Origin: Maribacter sp. 1_MG-2023
GTDB taxonomy: Bacteria > Bacteroidota > Bacteroidia > Flavobacteriales > Flavobacteriaceae
DNA: 64,000 nucleotides
NCBI RefSeq assembly: GCF_030547005.1
Contig: NZ_JAUOPN010000001.1
Span: 62,001 to 126,000 of the forward strand
Direction: 5' to 3'
Below, piece after piece: positions 47,057 to 63,775 of this stretch. Both the position numbers and the translations under genes were made by a program. Under the pieces are notes generated by a model. That model searched no databases. It was given only the letters and a program-made list of their open reading frames with translations, and was not told the origin of the DNA. The number at the start of each line of letters is the position of its first letter. Within the stretch, counting starts at the first letter, position 1.

Positions 47057-47116
47057 TATACGTTTAAGCATATAATATTGTATTTTAGAATAAAATTATA
47101 TTTAATTGCATATAAT
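47057..47116 (+). promoter_or_regulatory. Promoter/operator region of the first hipB
   Basis: A 60-bp AT-rich region before hipB carries two GCATATAAT direct repeats (47068-47076 and 47108-47116, the second overlapping the ATG). It aligns almost base for base with the region 50463-50522 ahead of the second hipB copy. Repeated TATATG/CATATA half-sites would suit HipB binding. Confidence 0.45.
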
Positions 47117-47336
47117 GAAGGAGTTATCCGAATTTGTAAAAGAACGAAGAAAAGAAGTTAATCTAACCCAAGAAGAGTTTGCTGAAAGGGCAGGGGTGGC
47201 ATTAACAGTAGTACGTAAAATAGAACAAGGCAAGACTAATCTTAATCTTGAAAAGGTAGACCAAGTACTGAAAATGTTTGGACACAAATTAATTCCGGTA
47301 AGTTTAAAAGATTTGGAAAGAGATGAGACAAGCTAA
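47115..47336 (+). CDS. hipB: HipB-type HTH antitoxin/repressor, copy 1
   Basis: A 73-residue Xre-family HTH protein: 'FVKERRKEVNLTQEEFAERA' and 'VALTVVRKIEQGKTNLNLEK' form the helix-turn-helix, then 'LKMFGHKLIPVSLKDLERDE'. HipB binds the operator and the kinase toxin. The ATG at 47115 is preferred over a TTG 9 bp upstream. Its 3' end overlaps hipS by 14 bp. It is over 85% identical by eye to the copy at 50521. Confidence 0.92.
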   Translation: MKELSEFVKERRKEVNLTQEEFAERAGVALTVVRKIEQGKTNLNLEKVDQVLKMFGHKLIPVSLKDLERDETS

Positions 47337-47655
47337 AATATTTTATGATGCTATTTATTGTGGTCTATTAATAGAAACTGATGACGGGGAATATACATTT
47401 GCTTATGACGAAGTTTATGTAAACGATTACCCTAATCAATTTATTACCTTTAAAATGCCGGTTAGTAATGAATTATATACGGATAATAGGTTATTTCCAT
47501 TTTTTGAAGGATTGATACCCGAAGGTTGGTTATTAAACATTGCTTCCAATAGTTGGAAAATTAATAGAAATGATCGCATGGGACTATTAATGGCATGTTG
47601 CCAAAATTGTATAGGAGCGGTAAGTGTTGAACCTGTAATACAAGAAAATGAATAG
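47323..47655 (+). CDS. hipS: HipS-like protein (HipA N-terminal subdomain as a separate gene)
   Basis: The 110-residue protein matches the N-terminal subdomain of HipA: 'YCGLLIETDDGEYTFAYDEV', 'YPNQFITFKMPVSNE', 'LFPFFEGLIPEGWLLNIAS', 'GLLMACCQNCIGAVSV'. In HipBST systems this piece is a separate protein that can serve as the antitoxin. Here it overlaps hipB by 14 bp and hipT by 8 bp, so the three are translated as a unit. The assignment to HipS rests on gene order and sequence style. Confidence 0.85.
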   Translation: MRQAKIFYDAIYCGLLIETDDGEYTFAYDEVYVNDYPNQFITFKMPVSNELYTDNRLFPFFEGLIPEGWLLNIASNSWKINRNDRMGLLMACCQNCIGAVSVEPVIQENE

Positions 47656-50459: not shown

Positions 50460-50470
50460 AACTATACGTA

Positions 50471-50494
50471 ATAACATATAATTTTATATGTTAT
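50471..50494 (+). promoter_or_regulatory. Perfect palindromic operator ahead of the second hipB
   Basis: ATAACATATAA and TTATATGTTAT are perfect 11-bp inverted repeats separated by TT. The site is 26 bp before the ATG of the second hipB, a normal position for a HipB operator. The matching region of copy 1 has lost the perfect symmetry. Confidence 0.6.
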
Positions 50495-50520
50495 AGTGAA
50501 ATTATATCTAATTGCATATA

Positions 50521-50742
50521 ATGAAAGAATTAGCTGAATTCGTAAAAGAAAGAAGAAAACGAGTGAATCTTACTCAGGAGGAATTTGCTGAAAGGGCAGG
50601 AGTAGCATTAACTGTTGTTCGTAAAATTGAACAAGGTAAGACAAACCTTAACCTTGCAAGGGTTAATCATGTTTTAGAAATGTTTGGACATACCCTTATT
50701 CCGGTAAGTTTAAAAGATTTGGAAAGAGATGAGACAAGCTAA
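50521..50742 (+). CDS. hipB: HipB-type HTH protein, copy 2
   Basis: A 73-residue Xre-type protein nearly identical to copy 1: 'FVKERRKRVNLTQEEFAERA', 'VALTVVRKIEQGKTNLNLAR', 'LEMFGHTLIPVSLKDLERDE'. Differences are few and conservative, so it may still bind DNA. No intact hipS or hipT follows, so it is an orphan that could repress the intact operon in trans. Confidence 0.9.
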   Translation: MKELAEFVKERRKRVNLTQEEFAERAGVALTVVRKIEQGKTNLNLARVNHVLEMFGHTLIPVSLKDLERDETS

Positions 50743-50758
50743 ATATTTCATGATTTAA
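50729..50758 (+). pseudogene. Frameshifted start of a second hipS
   Basis: The ATG overlapping the second hipB begins Met-Arg-Gln-Ala-Lys as in hipS copy 1, then one A is missing relative to copy 1 (AAGCTAAATATT against AAGCTAAAATATT). The frame ends after nine residues. The DNA similarity continues only a little further. The kinase gene is absent. Confidence 0.8.
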
Positions 50759-51437: not shown

Positions 51438-52067
51438 TTAGCATTTAGAAGAACAGTTCTGTAGATGACGATGTTTAAAATCTAATACAATTTGTGGTTT
51501 TCCATGTAGTTGATTTGGGTCATATGGTGTTTTTTCTAACCAGTCAACAAAATCAAGTTTATAAAGTTCATTTGCATCGGATTTATGTGCCTGACCTTGT
51601 TTAATAATAGGCCATAATCTTTTGGGTAAATCTATCGCATTATCTCCGAAATAATAAAAGTGATTAGATAGTAATACATTTTTACCGTTAAGATCCCTTT
51701 CTCTATTAAGACAATTATGAACGCTATCTCTTAATTTTGGTTCACTTTGCGAGTAATCATAAATTGAATCGCCCACATTTAATCGATAATCGTTGTTATT
51801 AATGTCTGGAACTTTTTTAGGTAAATACTTTAAACAATAATCATCATATTCTTTCATGGTCATTTTATTGGTAACCTTCATAGCATAGACCAATTTATTT
51901 CGATAGCTCTTTCCTCTAACATTTACAGAACCAACACCAGCAATCCAATCACCAATTTTTGCTACGCTTCTTATTTTAGGTTTACAAATAGCAAGAGTAC
52001 AAGTACCCCAATAGGGATTGGGGGCTGCTCCGTCGTCTACTGGAAGACAATAACTAAAGAGTCTCAT
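51438..52067 (-). CDS. Nmad2-like protein (nucleotide modification associated domain 2)
   Basis: The 209-residue protein begins 'RLFSYCLPVDDGAAPNPYWG', then 'TCTLAICKPKIRSVAKIGDW' and 'VYAMKVTNKMTMKEYDDY', which I recognise as the Nmad2 domain, a family named for its neighbourhood with DNA base-modification genes. The C-terminus is Cys-rich ('LQNCSSKC'). Its start overlaps the PD-(D/E)XK-like gene's end by 14 bp, so the two are coupled. Biochemical activity is unknown. Confidence 0.7.
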   Translation of the reverse strand: MRLFSYCLPVDDGAAPNPYWGTCTLAICKPKIRSVAKIGDWIAGVGSVNVRGKSYRNKLVYAMKVTNKMTMKEYDDYCLKYLPKKVPDINNNDYRLNVGDSIYDYSQSEPKLRDSVHNCLNRERDLNGKNVLLSNHFYYFGDNAIDLPKRLWPIIKQGQAHKSDANELYKLDFVDWLEKTPYDPNQLHGKPQIVLDFKHRHLQNCSSKC

Positions 52068-52524
52068 TGGTTAAGTTGGCTTGTGGCAATTGTTCCGATT
52101 TTTTTAATTTATTATTCAAGATTCCTAAATTTACAGCGGTAACTGTGGTAGATATATTTCGATAAAACTTCCTGTTACCTTCTTTCAAAAATTGGTTGAT
52201 ATACTTCCCTGGTCCGTTATAAATAACCTCCAACGTACCATTTGGCTCTATATGAACAGCTATATAGTGTTCTAAATCTATATTATAAGGGTAACTGAAG
52301 TAATAACCCATGCTTGCTTTTATTTGAACTTCTATTTTACTCTGTCTATGAATACCATCATATACAGGTGCATTTTTACCATAAAGTTCAATGTCAAACA
52401 TTTCGCTAACCAAAGCTTCACCTATGTCACCTACCAATCTACCGTCTAAAGAAAAATCTAGCTTTCCTTCAAATTGCTTCTTTAATGAAGCGGTAATGTC
52501 TAATAATTGTTGGATTTCTTTCAT
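52054..52524 (-). CDS. DUF6998/PD-(D/E)XK-like nuclease-fold protein
   Basis: The 156-residue product shows a likely restriction-endonuclease-like core: Glu36 in 'LVGDIGEALVSEMF', Asp56 in 'APVYDGIHRQ', and 'IEVQIKASMGYYF' where Gln67-x-Lys69 replaces the (D/E)xK pair. This E-D-QxK arrangement is a known variant of the fold. The family resembles DUF6998. It could bind or cut DNA with the neighbouring HNH protein. It lies 11 bp after the HNH gene and overlaps the Nmad2 gene. Confidence 0.65.
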   Translation of the reverse strand: MKEIQQLLDITASLKKQFEGKLDFSLDGRLVGDIGEALVSEMFDIELYGKNAPVYDGIHRQSKIEVQIKASMGYYFSYPYNIDLEHYIAVHIEPNGTLEVIYNGPGKYINQFLKEGNRKFYRNISTTVTAVNLGILNNKLKKSEQLPQANLTNETL

Positions 52525-52535
52525 TTAAAATAAAG

Positions 52536-53534
52536 TTAAACCCTTTTTGAAGTTCTTATGAGTTCATCAACTATATCTTTCTTGAACTTACTGAAGGGTC
52601 TTTTATGATAGTTGGATTCATCTATTTCGATACCGAAAATAAGGCGGTATTTATCTGATTTGGAAACTTCCAAATTCTCAAAAGTCTTATTTAAAAGAGT
52701 ATCTAGATAGTTATCGGAATATTTATAACGTAAGTCAATTAAATCTTGAAGTTCTTTCTTTGAGTGTCCCTTATATAATAATTTTGTTTCTAAAATATCA
52801 ATAGTGTTTTGGGCTTTTAAACCAGAAGGGTCATATTTTTTACATATTACTTCATATTCAGAAGGAGATTTCGCGAGGTAACTAAATCGAAACGATTTTG
52901 AAATTCCAGTATCAATATAAGGATGTAAATGGTCTTCTAAGTTTAAGGTTGCCGTAGATTTTATAGAGCTGTTACATATGCTGCATGAAGGAATTAAATT
53001 ATAAAATGACAGTGCAAGCAAAGGATGTTTGCTCTTTGTAAACCAATGATCAAACTGAGGTACCATTCCCTTTTCACCATTAGTTTTCCTCATGACCAAA
53101 ATATATTGTCTGTTACAGTAAGTGCAGGTATGAATGTCTAACCATTGGGCTAATTGATAATTGAGATTTTTATAGAAGTAGTTTTCATACCCGGCTTTGA
53201 CAAAAAGCTTTTTACACTCTTCTTTAAAATCATTTTCATCATATCCTCTTCCTGTGAACATTCTCTTAATTACCTCTTCAATCAGAAGCAGTTCGTCAGG
53301 TTTTGAGGCTATAATATATTCTATATTACGCTGGGTAAAGCAGCCGACAAAATCGGGATTTAGATCCGATTTAATCTTTAATGGTTTCGAACATGTTTTA
53401 CACAATTCATTACCACAATTATGACCGTGAGGATTAGCGACAGAATGTTTTCCCCAAAGTTTAATTTTTAACCAGCATGTAATTTCATTACTGTAATTTT
53501 GTAGCGCTTCTTTTTGCTCTCCTAGGTAAATCAT
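52536..53534 (-). CDS. HNH endonuclease, PtuB-like partner of the ATPase
   Basis: The 332-residue protein has an N-terminal Cys/His cluster (H36-G-H38-x-C40 ... C45-x2-C48) and a C-terminal-half HNH nuclease: C137-x2-C140 ('CTYCNRQY'), D162-H163 ('PQFDHWFTKSKHPLLALSF'), N179 and C184-x2-C187 ('CSICNSSIKS'). Its start overlaps the ATPase stop by 4 bp (ATGA). A RecF-like ATPase coupled to an HNH nuclease is the design of Septu (PtuA-PtuB) and of the retron effectors. DNA or tRNA cleavage during phage attack is therefore a reasonable inference. Confidence 0.8.
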   Translation of the reverse strand: MIYLGEQKEALQNYSNEITCWLKIKLWGKHSVANPHGHNCGNELCKTCSKPLKIKSDLNPDFVGCFTQRNIEYIIASKPDELLLIEEVIKRMFTGRGYDENDFKEECKKLFVKAGYENYFYKNLNYQLAQWLDIHTCTYCNRQYILVMRKTNGEKGMVPQFDHWFTKSKHPLLALSFYNLIPSCSICNSSIKSTATLNLEDHLHPYIDTGISKSFRFSYLAKSPSEYEVICKKYDPSGLKAQNTIDILETKLLYKGHSKKELQDLIDLRYKYSDNYLDTLLNKTFENLEVSKSDKYRLIFGIEIDESNYHKRPFSKFKKDIVDELIRTSKRV

Positions 53535-55471
53535 TGCTCGCCAAAATTTATATCAAGACCATATCGTTGTGCCATTTCCATTAAATGCTGTTTTTTACTT
53601 TCTTTATCCGTTTCATCCCTGAAGACTTCATAGTACATGTCTTCCAACTTAGTACTCAGAATGGGTTCATCTACAATCCTGATTAAATCTTTATGATATT
53701 CTTTCTCATCTAAATTTCGATTTTCATTCCTTAGCCAATTGATTGTTTCTTGAATTTTATCTTTTGCAAAATCTCCCATTAGAGAATCTTGTAAAAAGAA
53801 AGAATCCGCTAATAAATCAGTGAGATTGGCTCCAAAGGAGTGCCTCGGTTTATGAAGGTCTGAATCAGATATTATGTAACTAGAAGAATTATCTTGAGAC
53901 TTATTCACATAAACTATATTGTTCGAAGGTAAGTCACTCAGTGACAATGGATCATGTGTGGTAAAAATGATTTGTACTTTCGCATCTATTTTTTTGAATA
54001 GTTTTGTAGAAAACTCAATTAACGTTTTCACAAAATATCTTTTCCAAATAGGATGAAAACCCAAATCCGCCTCATCCAACAATAAAAGATAGTGCTTGTA
54101 CTTTCTTTCTGTTGGCATTTCTGAAATTACATTGGTATCAAAATACTCATGGATTCTACTGAACAGGTTCAACATGGCAGTTTCTCCTGAACTTAAATTT
54201 CTGGATGACGGTTCCAAATTGATATAGTTTGGAATTTCGTTTACCGTCCTATATTCAATGTTATCATTTGAATCACTTACCGCATAATATTTACTTAAAC
54301 TGCTAATTAATTTGCGTTCTAACTCATACAATTCGTCTACTTTTTCGGTCTCCAGAAATATTGACTTTAAACTCCAATCAAAGTAAATCGACCCTCTTTG
54401 ATTACTATCAAATTCAATATTATCAATATAATTAAAAAGAAAATCCAATAAACTTAAAATTTCCTTATCCGGTAAATTCTTTTGTCCTCCTTTGGAGTAA
54501 TAATAGTCTTCAAACCAAATTTTATATAATTTAAATGGATTGTTGGCTTCTATAAGTTTTTCATCATACACATCAATTTTATCAAAATGCCCCTCTTTAA
54601 GATACGAGTTTTCCATTTCCATTAACTTTATGAGAAGACAGAAAATATCCATCAAAATGTAATTCTTCATTAAATTTTTCTGAAGGATGAATTGATCTTT
54701 ATCGGTATCCCTTTTGGAATTTCTAATTTGATAGGACTCTGTTTTTATTTTTTTATATAAACCTTTTAAAAATGGTCGAAAATCATTGGGCGTATTATCA
54801 AAAAAAACTTCGTATTCGTCAGCATCGATTCTATATCTGGTAAATGTGATACGGTGCAAATTATCATCGGGAAAATCAAATATTTCCTTAATTGGCTTAG
54901 CTAATTCCGAAACTTTTAAATTCCTTATCCTTCGGTAATTCGCTCGCTTGATTACCTCTTTCGGTAATACGAATCCAGATGGCGGCGATAAATAGGATAA
55001 AGATTCTAAATCCTTACTTAAAATATTATCAAAACTTAAATCAACTCCGCTTAAAGCTGGTTTAAAATCAAGAAAAGGACTATAATAAATCGTATTGATA
55101 TCAACTTCGATATTTTTGAAGGAAAAAGGGATAGCAAGCTTTTTATTTATTCTCATAAAGTTATGAAAGATGGCTGTTTCTCCATCTTCAAAAATTATAA
55201 CTTGATTACCACTGTTTCTATCAATAGCTTCAACTATTTCATACATCAAAGAAGTTTTTCCTGCACCATTAGACCCAACTATAGCTGAAACATTAAGTAA
55301 TGTTTTTGATTCATCAAAAAAACTTTCTAAATATTTAGGGTTTCGCTCTCGGGTTATATTTATAGTCTTTGGATCTTCTTCTAATTTGTATATATATTTT
55401 CCACCAAAATTTAATGTAAAAGGTGTTTCAAATAAATGATAGTCAAATATGTAAATAGCGGCTAGAGTCAT
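53531..55471 (-). CDS. RecF/OLD-like AAA ATPase, PtuA-like
   Basis: The 646-residue protein is an ABC/SMC-like AAA_15-type ATPase. Walker A is 'GSNGAGKTS' (66-74), signature 'NLSSGETAMLNLF' (425-437), Walker B 'YLLLLDEADLGFHP' (461-474) and the H-loop 'IIFTTHDPLSL' (His506). The C-terminus contains 'HSFGANLTDLLADSFFLQDS', as in PtuA-type proteins; no TOPRIM domain is seen, so it is not a complete OLD nuclease. The paired HNH gene overlaps by 4 bp. It starts 11 bp after hsdS, so it lies in the restriction operon. Confidence 0.85.
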   Translation of the reverse strand: MTLAAIYIFDYHLFETPFTLNFGGKYIYKLEEDPKTINITRERNPKYLESFFDESKTLLNVSAIVGSNGAGKTSLMYEIVEAIDRNSGNQVIIFEDGETAIFHNFMRINKKLAIPFSFKNIEVDINTIYYSPFLDFKPALSGVDLSFDNILSKDLESLSYLSPPSGFVLPKEVIKRANYRRIRNLKVSELAKPIKEIFDFPDDNLHRITFTRYRIDADEYEVFFDNTPNDFRPFLKGLYKKIKTESYQIRNSKRDTDKDQFILQKNLMKNYILMDIFCLLIKLMEMENSYLKEGHFDKIDVYDEKLIEANNPFKLYKIWFEDYYYSKGGQKNLPDKEILSLLDFLFNYIDNIEFDSNQRGSIYFDWSLKSIFLETEKVDELYELERKLISSLSKYYAVSDSNDNIEYRTVNEIPNYINLEPSSRNLSSGETAMLNLFSRIHEYFDTNVISEMPTERKYKHYLLLLDEADLGFHPIWKRYFVKTLIEFSTKLFKKIDAKVQIIFTTHDPLSLSDLPSNNIVYVNKSQDNSSSYIISDSDLHKPRHSFGANLTDLLADSFFLQDSLMGDFAKDKIQETINWLRNENRNLDEKEYHKDLIRIVDEPILSTKLEDMYYEVFRDETDKESKKQHLMEMAQRYGLDINFGEQ

Positions 55472-62541: not shown

Positions 62542-63510
62542 TTAATAATCTCGGTTCTCAGGATTATCCAAAAACCTGTTGAGGATATTTGCTATATGCT
62601 CCGGTTCTTTATGTATAGGTTTATTTTTAGCAACAATTATATCAGATGTTGGAGTTAATGTAAGCCAGGCATCATCATGATCCCTATCCCAGACTCCGTA
62701 TAGGCATTTTGTGCCTTTTTCTAAATAGACATCTTCTTTAATTAAAAGTGTCCCGCTAAAACGTGGTGTGTGGATATTTCGGTAAGTTTTATTTTTTTCT
62801 AATAAGAAGCTTAATCTAGACCAGGTATTCGCATTTGTAGGTTTGGATGCTAATGATTCCTGTTTAATTTCACAAAGTAATAAATCTTTAAGTTCTTCAG
62901 GATAGGAAATCACAACATATTCATTTGCAAAATTTTCTTCTATATGTATAAGTTCTAGTAATTTGAGTTTATAAAAATTTAGATAATTTTCGTTGTAATA
63001 AGATAAAGATATTCTATTTGGGCAGGTATTGATAAAATGAATCATAAACCTTGCTTCATCTTCATGTATTCTTGTTTCTTTATATCTTTCAATTGCGGAA
63101 TTGAATGCTGTTTGCTGTTGGTATTTTATTTCTGCTAACTCATGTTCTTTTCTACGAATTTCGATTAATCTTTTGTTTTCCTCATCTTGTTTTAATCTTT
63201 GTTTATCAATGCATTCTTCACATAATGGTAAATTTCTAAGAGTACTTAGAAAATGTGTTTGTGAAGTAACTTCTTGTTTTAAGATTTCATTACAAGCGCC
63301 GCAATTGCATTCTAGACATACATCAGAATATTCTTTAATAGTTAGAAATAAATCGTGAAGACTAATATTGTAATTATTAGATAACTGCTTTGGTTTATTT
63401 TCAAACTCTCCTTTTTTATAGCTCCAATATGAATTAACTAGATATAGGGTTTCTTTATCTGGGTTGTTCTTGATGATTACTGAGTAATTAATTTCTTGTG
63501 TATTGTCCAT
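62542..63510 (-). CDS. Zinc-finger and coiled-coil protein of unknown function
   Basis: The frame is open to 63585, but the first 25 residues are translated from a structured GC-rich leader; the ATG at 63510 (MDNTQEINYSVII) is the likely start, giving 322 residues. A Cys-rich motif 'CLECNCGACNEIL' and a later 'LCEECIDKQR' could bind zinc, followed by a charged coiled-coil ('ENKRLIEIRRKEHELAEIKY'). No enzyme motif is seen. No name can be given. The unusual leader suggests post-transcriptional control. Confidence 0.65.
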   Translation of the reverse strand: MDNTQEINYSVIIKNNPDKETLYLVNSYWSYKKGEFENKPKQLSNNYNISLHDLFLTIKEYSDVCLECNCGACNEILKQEVTSQTHFLSTLRNLPLCEECIDKQRLKQDEENKRLIEIRRKEHELAEIKYQQQTAFNSAIERYKETRIHEDEARFMIHFINTCPNRISLSYYNENYLNFYKLKLLELIHIEENFANEYVVISYPEELKDLLLCEIKQESLASKPTNANTWSRLSFLLEKNKTYRNIHTPRFSGTLLIKEDVYLEKGTKCLYGVWDRDHDDAWLTLTPTSDIIVAKNKPIHKEPEHIANILNRFLDNPENRDY

Positions 63511-63670
63511 AAAAAAGCGTGGAACTGAACCCGTTAGCACTGAAGGTATCGCCAGACACCCGAACACCACACAAGAACAGCCCACGCCAGAGCGTGGGCA
63601 TTTGTCTTGATTGTAGTGTTCATTAAAACTGGCGATTTTATCAGTACTAAATCAAAAGCAAAATGCTTTT
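63511..63670 (-). promoter_or_regulatory. Structured leader with mutually exclusive stems before the zinc-finger gene
   Basis: Read on the minus strand, toward the gene: ATCGCCAG (63636-63629), CCCACGC (63598-63592), GCGTGGGCTG (63587-63578), CTGGCGAT (63555-63548), CAGTTCCACGC (63527-63517), then TTTTTT and the ATG. ATCGCCAG pairs perfectly with CTGGCGAT and encloses the CCCACGC/GCGTGGG hairpin, but GCGTGGGCTG can instead pair with CAGTTCCACGC beside the T run. A further hairpin AAAAGCA/TGCTTTT lies at 63654-63670. It may be an attenuator, an attC-like element or a remnant of a mobile element. Confidence 0.45.
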
Positions 63671-63775
63671 ATATCTTAAAATTCTTTGTTGTTCCTTATA
63701 TTTTTTGATTTATTATTGTTCAAATTTAGTTAAAATCACAGGACTTCAAATTTAGAAGTACATGACTTTTATTCA

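Follow-up and report, generated by a model that had tools for sequence, protein, structure and literature searches.

A two-state, attenuator-like RNA leader ahead of unrelated accessory genes in Maribacter and other Bacteroidota

Attenuators of the trp type consist of four RNA segments with the mutually exclusive pairings 1:2, 2:3 and 3:4 and a U-run after segment 4, and an attenuator usually serves a single gene or pathway. Related terminators have also been reported directly upstream of unrelated genes: the 'mobile attenuators' derive from insertion sequences or prophages and, in the part of the source used here, are described as highly conserved and recent (Naville and Gautheret 2010, PMC2965389). 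The passages of PMC8040213 considered here list palindromic candidate RNAs of Bacteroidetes (HMP2_4078, HMP2_4205 and HMP2_1032; 106-132 bp), two of the three being predicted terminators, and for a Flavobacterium the section of PMC9723704 that concerns us gives 64 structured 5' regions, of which many are unassigned. Here we analysed a leader from Maribacter sp. 1_MG-2023 within a stretch of 64,000 nucleotides (the window). In this case one and the same leader stands before unrelated accessory genes, it is found across a phylum that is major both in the gut and in the environment, and homologues of one gene may have it or lack it.

On the minus strand of the window, positions 63666-63511 hold a four-segment leader, flanked by a Bacteroidota-type promoter upstream and by the start codon (ATG) of an orphan gene downstream (Table 1). 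The available pairings are 1:2, 2:3 or 3:4, and the 3:4 helix stops at the U-run. A preliminary description of the window had proposed two alternative pairings for the segment 63587-63578 (GCGUGGGCUG, minus strand), and both are present. With the upstream partner GCCCACGC (63599-63592) it forms the 8-bp hairpin that had been described. The alternative partner is CAGUUCCACGC, whose last eight bases (63524-63517) directly adjoin the U6 (63516-63511) and then the ATG (63510-63508), again as proposed; the downstream gene begins at 63510, directly 3' of the U-run. Because both pairings occupy the same GCGUGGGCUG bases they are mutually exclusive, and that claim also holds. Absent from the preliminary description were the upstream promoter (63750-63721) and a third exclusive helix between 63666-63649 (segment 1) and 63611-63596 (segment 2), which completes the full 1:2 / 2:3 / 3:4 series. 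The minimum free energy of the 160-nt element is -69.8 kcal/mol compared to -37.8 (sd 3.4) in 200 shuffles (z -9.4, 0/200 as good). The element had been called GC-richer than its surroundings, and we measured a GC content of 0.42 against ~0.26-0.31 in 500-base intervals from 61.5 to 63.5 kb. A search of the genome detected this one copy. Along the leader the order is promoter, segment 1, P1, GAAA, P2, AAUUU, P3, segment 2 and loop for the 5' half, followed by segment 3, P3', GGKNU, P2', ACC, P1', segment 4, U-run and gene. The conserved loop bases beside P2 are GAAA, GGKNU and ACC.

Table 1. Positions of the leader elements and flanking features in the window, listed in the direction of transcription
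Feature	Position	Strand	Remark
-33-type promoter element TTTG	63747..63750	(-)	18 nt ahead of the -7 element; consensus presumed
-7-type promoter element TAAATTTG (TAnnTTTG)	63721..63728	(-)	motif enriched in other copies
Segment 1, partner of segment 2 in the terminator state	63649..63666	(-)	swap test z -14.9
P1 5' strand	63641..63650	(-)	swap test z -30.1
P2 5' strand AUCGCCAG	63629..63636	(-)	other complementary pairs substitute in distant copies
P3 5' strand	63612..63622	(-)	
Segment 2, includes GCCCACGC (63599-63592)	63592..63611	(-)	partner is segment 1 or segment 3
Segment 3, includes GCGUGGGC (63587-63580)	63570..63587	(-)	partner is segment 2 or 4; outer end approximate
P3 3' strand	63563..63573	(-)	ends approximate; overlaps end of segment 3
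GGGUGUCUGGCGAUACC, holds P2 3' strand (63555-63548)	63545..63561	(-)	own hairpin in the terminator state; 98.9% of cells paired
P1 3' strand	63534..63544	(-)	
Segment 4, ends in UUCCACGC (63524-63517)	63517..63532	(-)	joins segment 3 to close the terminator stem
U-run of the intrinsic terminator	63511..63516	(-)	U-run in 131/135 pattern copies
Downstream gene, 322 aa	62542..63510	(-)	CxxC pairs by eye; without Pfam match

The downstream gene had been described as a zinc-finger gene. CxxC pairs can indeed be seen by eye, but its product gave no Pfam match. Its frame stays open upstream across the leader's 3' half (63511-63585) as far as a GTG; the longer GTG-started ORF reaching into the leader is not needed and could mislead gene callers. 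The leader sits within an integrative mobilizable element, which comprises a tyrosine integrase (44.0 kb), genes for type I restriction (55.5-61.5 kb; named by eye), the leader with its gene and, past these and beyond the window, ribbon-helix-helix, ParA, relaxase and primase genes. Beside the restriction genes lies a defence-like cluster (51438-55471) with an Nmad2 domain protein, DUF6998 and an AbiEii-like AAA ATPase. Positions 47057-47337 and 50463-50743 form a direct repeat of 281 bases, 82% identical, with two similar helix-turn-helix genes.

A covariance search across Flavobacteriaceae had been named as a check on the element. We ran it with a model (R1) built from 28 copies and detected matches in 48/397 genomes of the family, 50/395 of the phylum and 4/36 of the genus, with one to six copies per leader-bearing genome; these genome counts are lower bounds, since stricter filters were applied in the larger searches and the model holds only 16 base pairs. 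With blastn the leader was found in 10/397 genomes of the family. As only a minority of the genomes at each of the three ranks carry copies, the leader is accessory and not core. A search of the collected bacterial and archaeal genomes with an exact pattern on the P2 stem gave at least 118 matching stretches, and viral contigs gave 12. Nearly all named records among the matches listed are Bacteroidota, with Flavobacterium segetis, Paraprevotella clara and Leyella lascolaii among the cultured carriers; the few others are metagenome-assembled genomes (Ignavibacteria, Marinimicrobia, Cloacimonadota and Lentisphaerae), in which binning errors are possible. The window element gave no blastn match to plasmids and phages and a Prevotella copy none to plasmids, single-sequence blastn being too weak for such variable stems. 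In Rfam 15 we found no match at the gathering score for the element in the window or in the 20 loci tested, and none up to E 5 for the element in 11 loci. Two contigs carry leader and gene in tandem (L190, 3001-3168 and 5371-5534; L045, 1509-1603 and 4621-4714), and on a third an rteR small RNA (Rfam RF04181; L171, 39-121) lies ~1.4 kb from a leader copy.

Several matches were set aside. From the 142 pattern matches we left out L033, L078, L126 and L138, which are coding-looking chance matches, and the structurally odd L100. L056 was left out of several early counts and included in the swap test described below. For the swap-test set, 4/137 copies were excluded for closeness to a contig end, 4/46 model matches had no parsable P2 and seven elements had no U-run by the rule used; in 2/38 parsed model matches P1 was probably mistaken for P2.

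To compare the pairings across copies we contrasted the energy of each segment with its own partner and with the partner from another copy, using 63 non-redundant copies (≤75% identical) and 2000 permutations. For 2:3 the energy was -32.2 kcal/mol with the own and -17.1 with the swapped partner (z -29.7), for 3:4 it was -22.7 and -13.9 (z -19.8), for 1:2 -14.8 and -10.0 (z -14.9) and for P1 -10.0 and -2.6 (z -30.1), with 0/2000 permutations in every case. As the copies share descent these z values exceed those that independent events would yield; the guard against this is the control pairings from the same set, which were flat (1:3 z -0.3, 2:4 +1.8, P1 with 4 +0.1, 1 with P1' 0.0). The 1:4 pairing, which lies outside the model, was slightly over the control (z -2.1, 37/2000). 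Among 13 close relatives 88.2% of the cells of the terminator state were paired, compared to at most 47.2% when slid, and 12 pairs had changed on both sides compared to 5.9 in shuffled data. The corresponding values for the rod were 81.0% against at most 43.6%, and 23 pairs against 12.6. P2 is invariant in the pattern-selected copies, being fixed by their selection, but the model-found copies substitute other complementary pairs (e.g. ACTGGTA/TACCAGT and CTGACA/TGTCAG), and hence P2 covaries too. On this comparative evidence we regard both exclusive states as being under selection, and the leader as a real, conserved, two-state RNA.

The median length of the 3:4 helix is 18 pairs, and in 154/168 copies its end is at most one base away from the U-run. 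The rod is more stable than the 3:4 state by a median of 11.8 kcal/mol across the 168 copies, and 3:4 appears in only 5/168 minimum-energy folds. In growing-chain folds of 15 copies, which give an equilibrium picture and not kinetics, 1:2 was dominant first in 14/15, and 2:3 supplanted 1:2 before segment 4 existed in 15/15. Since the rod is so strongly favoured, termination would need a kinetic trap or a factor, and we found none that favours termination. Under these folding models read-through is probably the default, and termination would require something that holds 1:2 or delays the rod.

For the promoter we relied on TTTG / TAnnTTTG, which we take to be the Bacteroidota consensus and which is said to go back to Bayley in 2000 and Chen in 2007. 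TAnnTTTG was observed at -135 to -55 from P2 in 94/164 copies, compared to 7/152 in a control stretch farther upstream; its antisense form occurred in 12/152 of the same stretches. In 123/129 cases the leader shares its strand with the nearest ORF downstream, 114 of these ORFs lying within 400 bases; for the nearest upstream ORF this holds in 82/132. From U-run to ATG the median is 55 nt, and just 3/114 of these gaps contain the promoter motif. Several features of an attenuator are found together, namely exclusive terminator and antiterminator helices, a flush U-run and a position between promoter and gene on one strand. The likeness to an attenuator that had been noted from the window alone is strengthened: both exclusive states covary, the U-run is flush, a promoter lies upstream and a same-strand gene downstream.

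Attenuation by a leader peptide was rejected for the window, where by eye no ATG or GTG lies between promoter and segment 1. Short ORFs were found in 78/134 copies overall compared to 59.9 (sd 6.1) in shuffled data. Many Bacteroidales copies (L013, L021, L070, L085 and others) show an ORF of 1-4 codons (e.g. UGCCUAUG-GGC-UGA or AUG-ACA-UAA) that lies past the promoter and ahead of segment 1. These ORFs cluster ~70 nt before P2: the -70 bin has 14/63, the other bins 0-7.

The genes behind the leader vary widely. A set of ten leaders at the level of Flavobacteriaceae showed 72-89% identity in the parts that align, yet their downstream proteins form five groups that do not match one another by blastp; L003 and L060 share 88.7% of the leader with unrelated downstream genes. 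For the window's gene, distant homologues with 22-28% identity occur in six genomes (two of the six broken by a stop), and no model match with E up to 1 was found near them. At L244 and L246 a small ORF that by eye resembles the window's ribbon-helix-helix gene precedes the homologue, and since only a few tens of bases separate the two there is no room for a leader; in the window promoter and leader lie between the two genes. A Pfam scan of 135/164 downstream proteins from across the phylum gave matches to 62 families in all with no dominant one, the commonest being BspA-type leucine-rich repeats (11) and DNA methylases (5). A reading confined to defence was rejected, as just 5/135 are type III methyltransferases and only a few others are restriction-related. 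By a crude rule without a control, 100/164 are signal-peptide-like, and we draw no claim from this. In genus g127 (L152, L154, L164, L165, L167, L169, L185-L188) the leader lies ~200-310 nt before genes that by eye encode SusC-like outer membrane receptors, with several such copies per genome. As to riboswitch features, conserved loop bases are present and the genes behind the leader have no common pathway; without a common function no signal can be guessed. The preliminary description held that a fixed repeat before unrelated genes would speak against a switch. The genes are indeed unrelated, but the repeat is not fixed, as the stems vary with pairing kept. Across copies the placement with respect to promoter and gene is kept as well, so that the leader would be a switch and a portable module at once.

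We consider it likely that the leader is a cis-acting transcription attenuator which, together with its promoter, forms a portable module ahead of single accessory genes. What the comparison of copies brought out is two states, covariation, a flush U-run, a promoter, a gene and sporadic spread before unrelated genes; from these we infer termination in cells, a regulated switch and the rod as the ON state. By every sequence test available the leader behaves like a transcription attenuator. In the emerging RNA segment 1 would pair with segment 2 first. Segment 3 would then appear, displace segment 1 and pair with segment 2, after which P3, P2 and P1 would zip into the long rod. Segment 4 would stay free and the polymerase would continue into the gene. 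If the 1:2 hairpin were held or the rod delayed, segment 3 could pair with segment 4, with GGU..ACC as a small cap inside the 3:4 hairpin, and would complete an intrinsic terminator at the U-run that stops transcription just ahead of the start codon.

There are several other possible explanations. The rod is by far the stabler state, conserved loop bases (GAAA, GGKNU, ACC) flank P2 and the window's ATG abuts the U-run, all of which would suit an RNA that acts after or beside transcription. The rod would then be an antitermination or processing signal, with put/EAR-like signals as its model, or would control access to the start codon, and 3:4 would be secondary. We consider this improbable: 3:4 covaries as a constraint of its own (z -19.8) and is flush with the U-run in 154/168 copies, neither of which a rod-only function needs. 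The promoter motif and the terminator-like end could belong to a separate small RNA gene that stands before other genes by chance. With the next gene on the same strand in 123/129 cases, a median of 55 nt from U-run to ATG, a promoter motif in just 3/114 of the gaps and a window ATG that touches the U-run, such a gene is very unlikely.

We give similarly little credence to an attenuator under the control of an antisense RNA from the opposite strand, as known from plasmid copy control (pT181, pIP501). P1, P2 and P3 differ even between copies within genome G546, as expected if each recognises only itself, but the antisense promoter motif is not enriched (counts of 0 to 6 in 50-base bins between -300 and +400, 63 copies); in all 168 copies, a redundant set, one bin inside the element reaches 19. 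It would be most surprising if the element were a mobile hairpin acting at the DNA level, an attC-like site or a MITE, with the RNA fold as a by-product. It is palindromic, GC-richer, sporadic, located before unrelated genes and inside an integrative mobilizable element; however, it has a single copy in this genome, and its orientation and distance to promoter and gene are fixed. The attC-like character suggested earlier was not borne out: the RYYYAAC/GTTRRRY box pair is absent from the window element and was seen in 2/63 copies per strand (shuffled ~0.9), and none of the 12 integron integrase matches in this genome exceeds the TIGR02249 curated cut-off. An origin from an insertion sequence or transposon was likewise rejected, with no transposase in the commonest 25 of 143 Pfam families for 119/148 upstream neighbours; two of the 119 are phage integrases.

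Returning to the attenuator, a wider claim is possible but doubtful when taken as a whole: that one two-state leader family has spread through Bacteroidota as a general-purpose control cassette under one common cue, that this cue is the speed or state of transcription and not a metabolite of the gene's pathway, that any accessory gene which gains the leader, be it a restriction enzyme, surface protein or mobile-element gene, answers to this cue, and that the scattered copies extend to the Ignavibacteria, Marinimicrobia, Cloacimonadota and Lentisphaerae assemblies. Should the leader work as proposed, it would give horizontally acquired genes in Bacteroidota a shared layer of control and could be used as a ready-made expression switch. 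The two-state model leads to precise and cheap predictions.

Among the systems described before, the Rfam motifs of Bacteroidetes (Flavo-1, Bacteroidales-1, Bacteroid-trp and others) are structured RNAs of the same phylum without a match to the leader. The leader is absent from Rfam 15 and we did not find it described in the literature searched; a prior listing elsewhere is possible. The candidates of PMC8040213 are, like the leader, palindromic and from Bacteroidetes, and the leader family may be included among them; in the part of that source used here they come without a two-state model, and the comparison is by description only. With trp-type attenuators the leader has in common the four segments, the exclusive 1:2, 2:3 and 3:4 pairings and the U-run after segment 4. 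Unlike them, the window leader has no leader peptide overlapping segment 1, a rod arises in which the long helices P1-P3 connect segments 2 and 3, and the genes are unrelated. The nearest idea in the literature is that of the mobile attenuators, as far as the portion of PMC2965389 considered here goes. In comparison with these the leader shows no transposase signal nearby, and it has a promoter and a deep covariation of two states.
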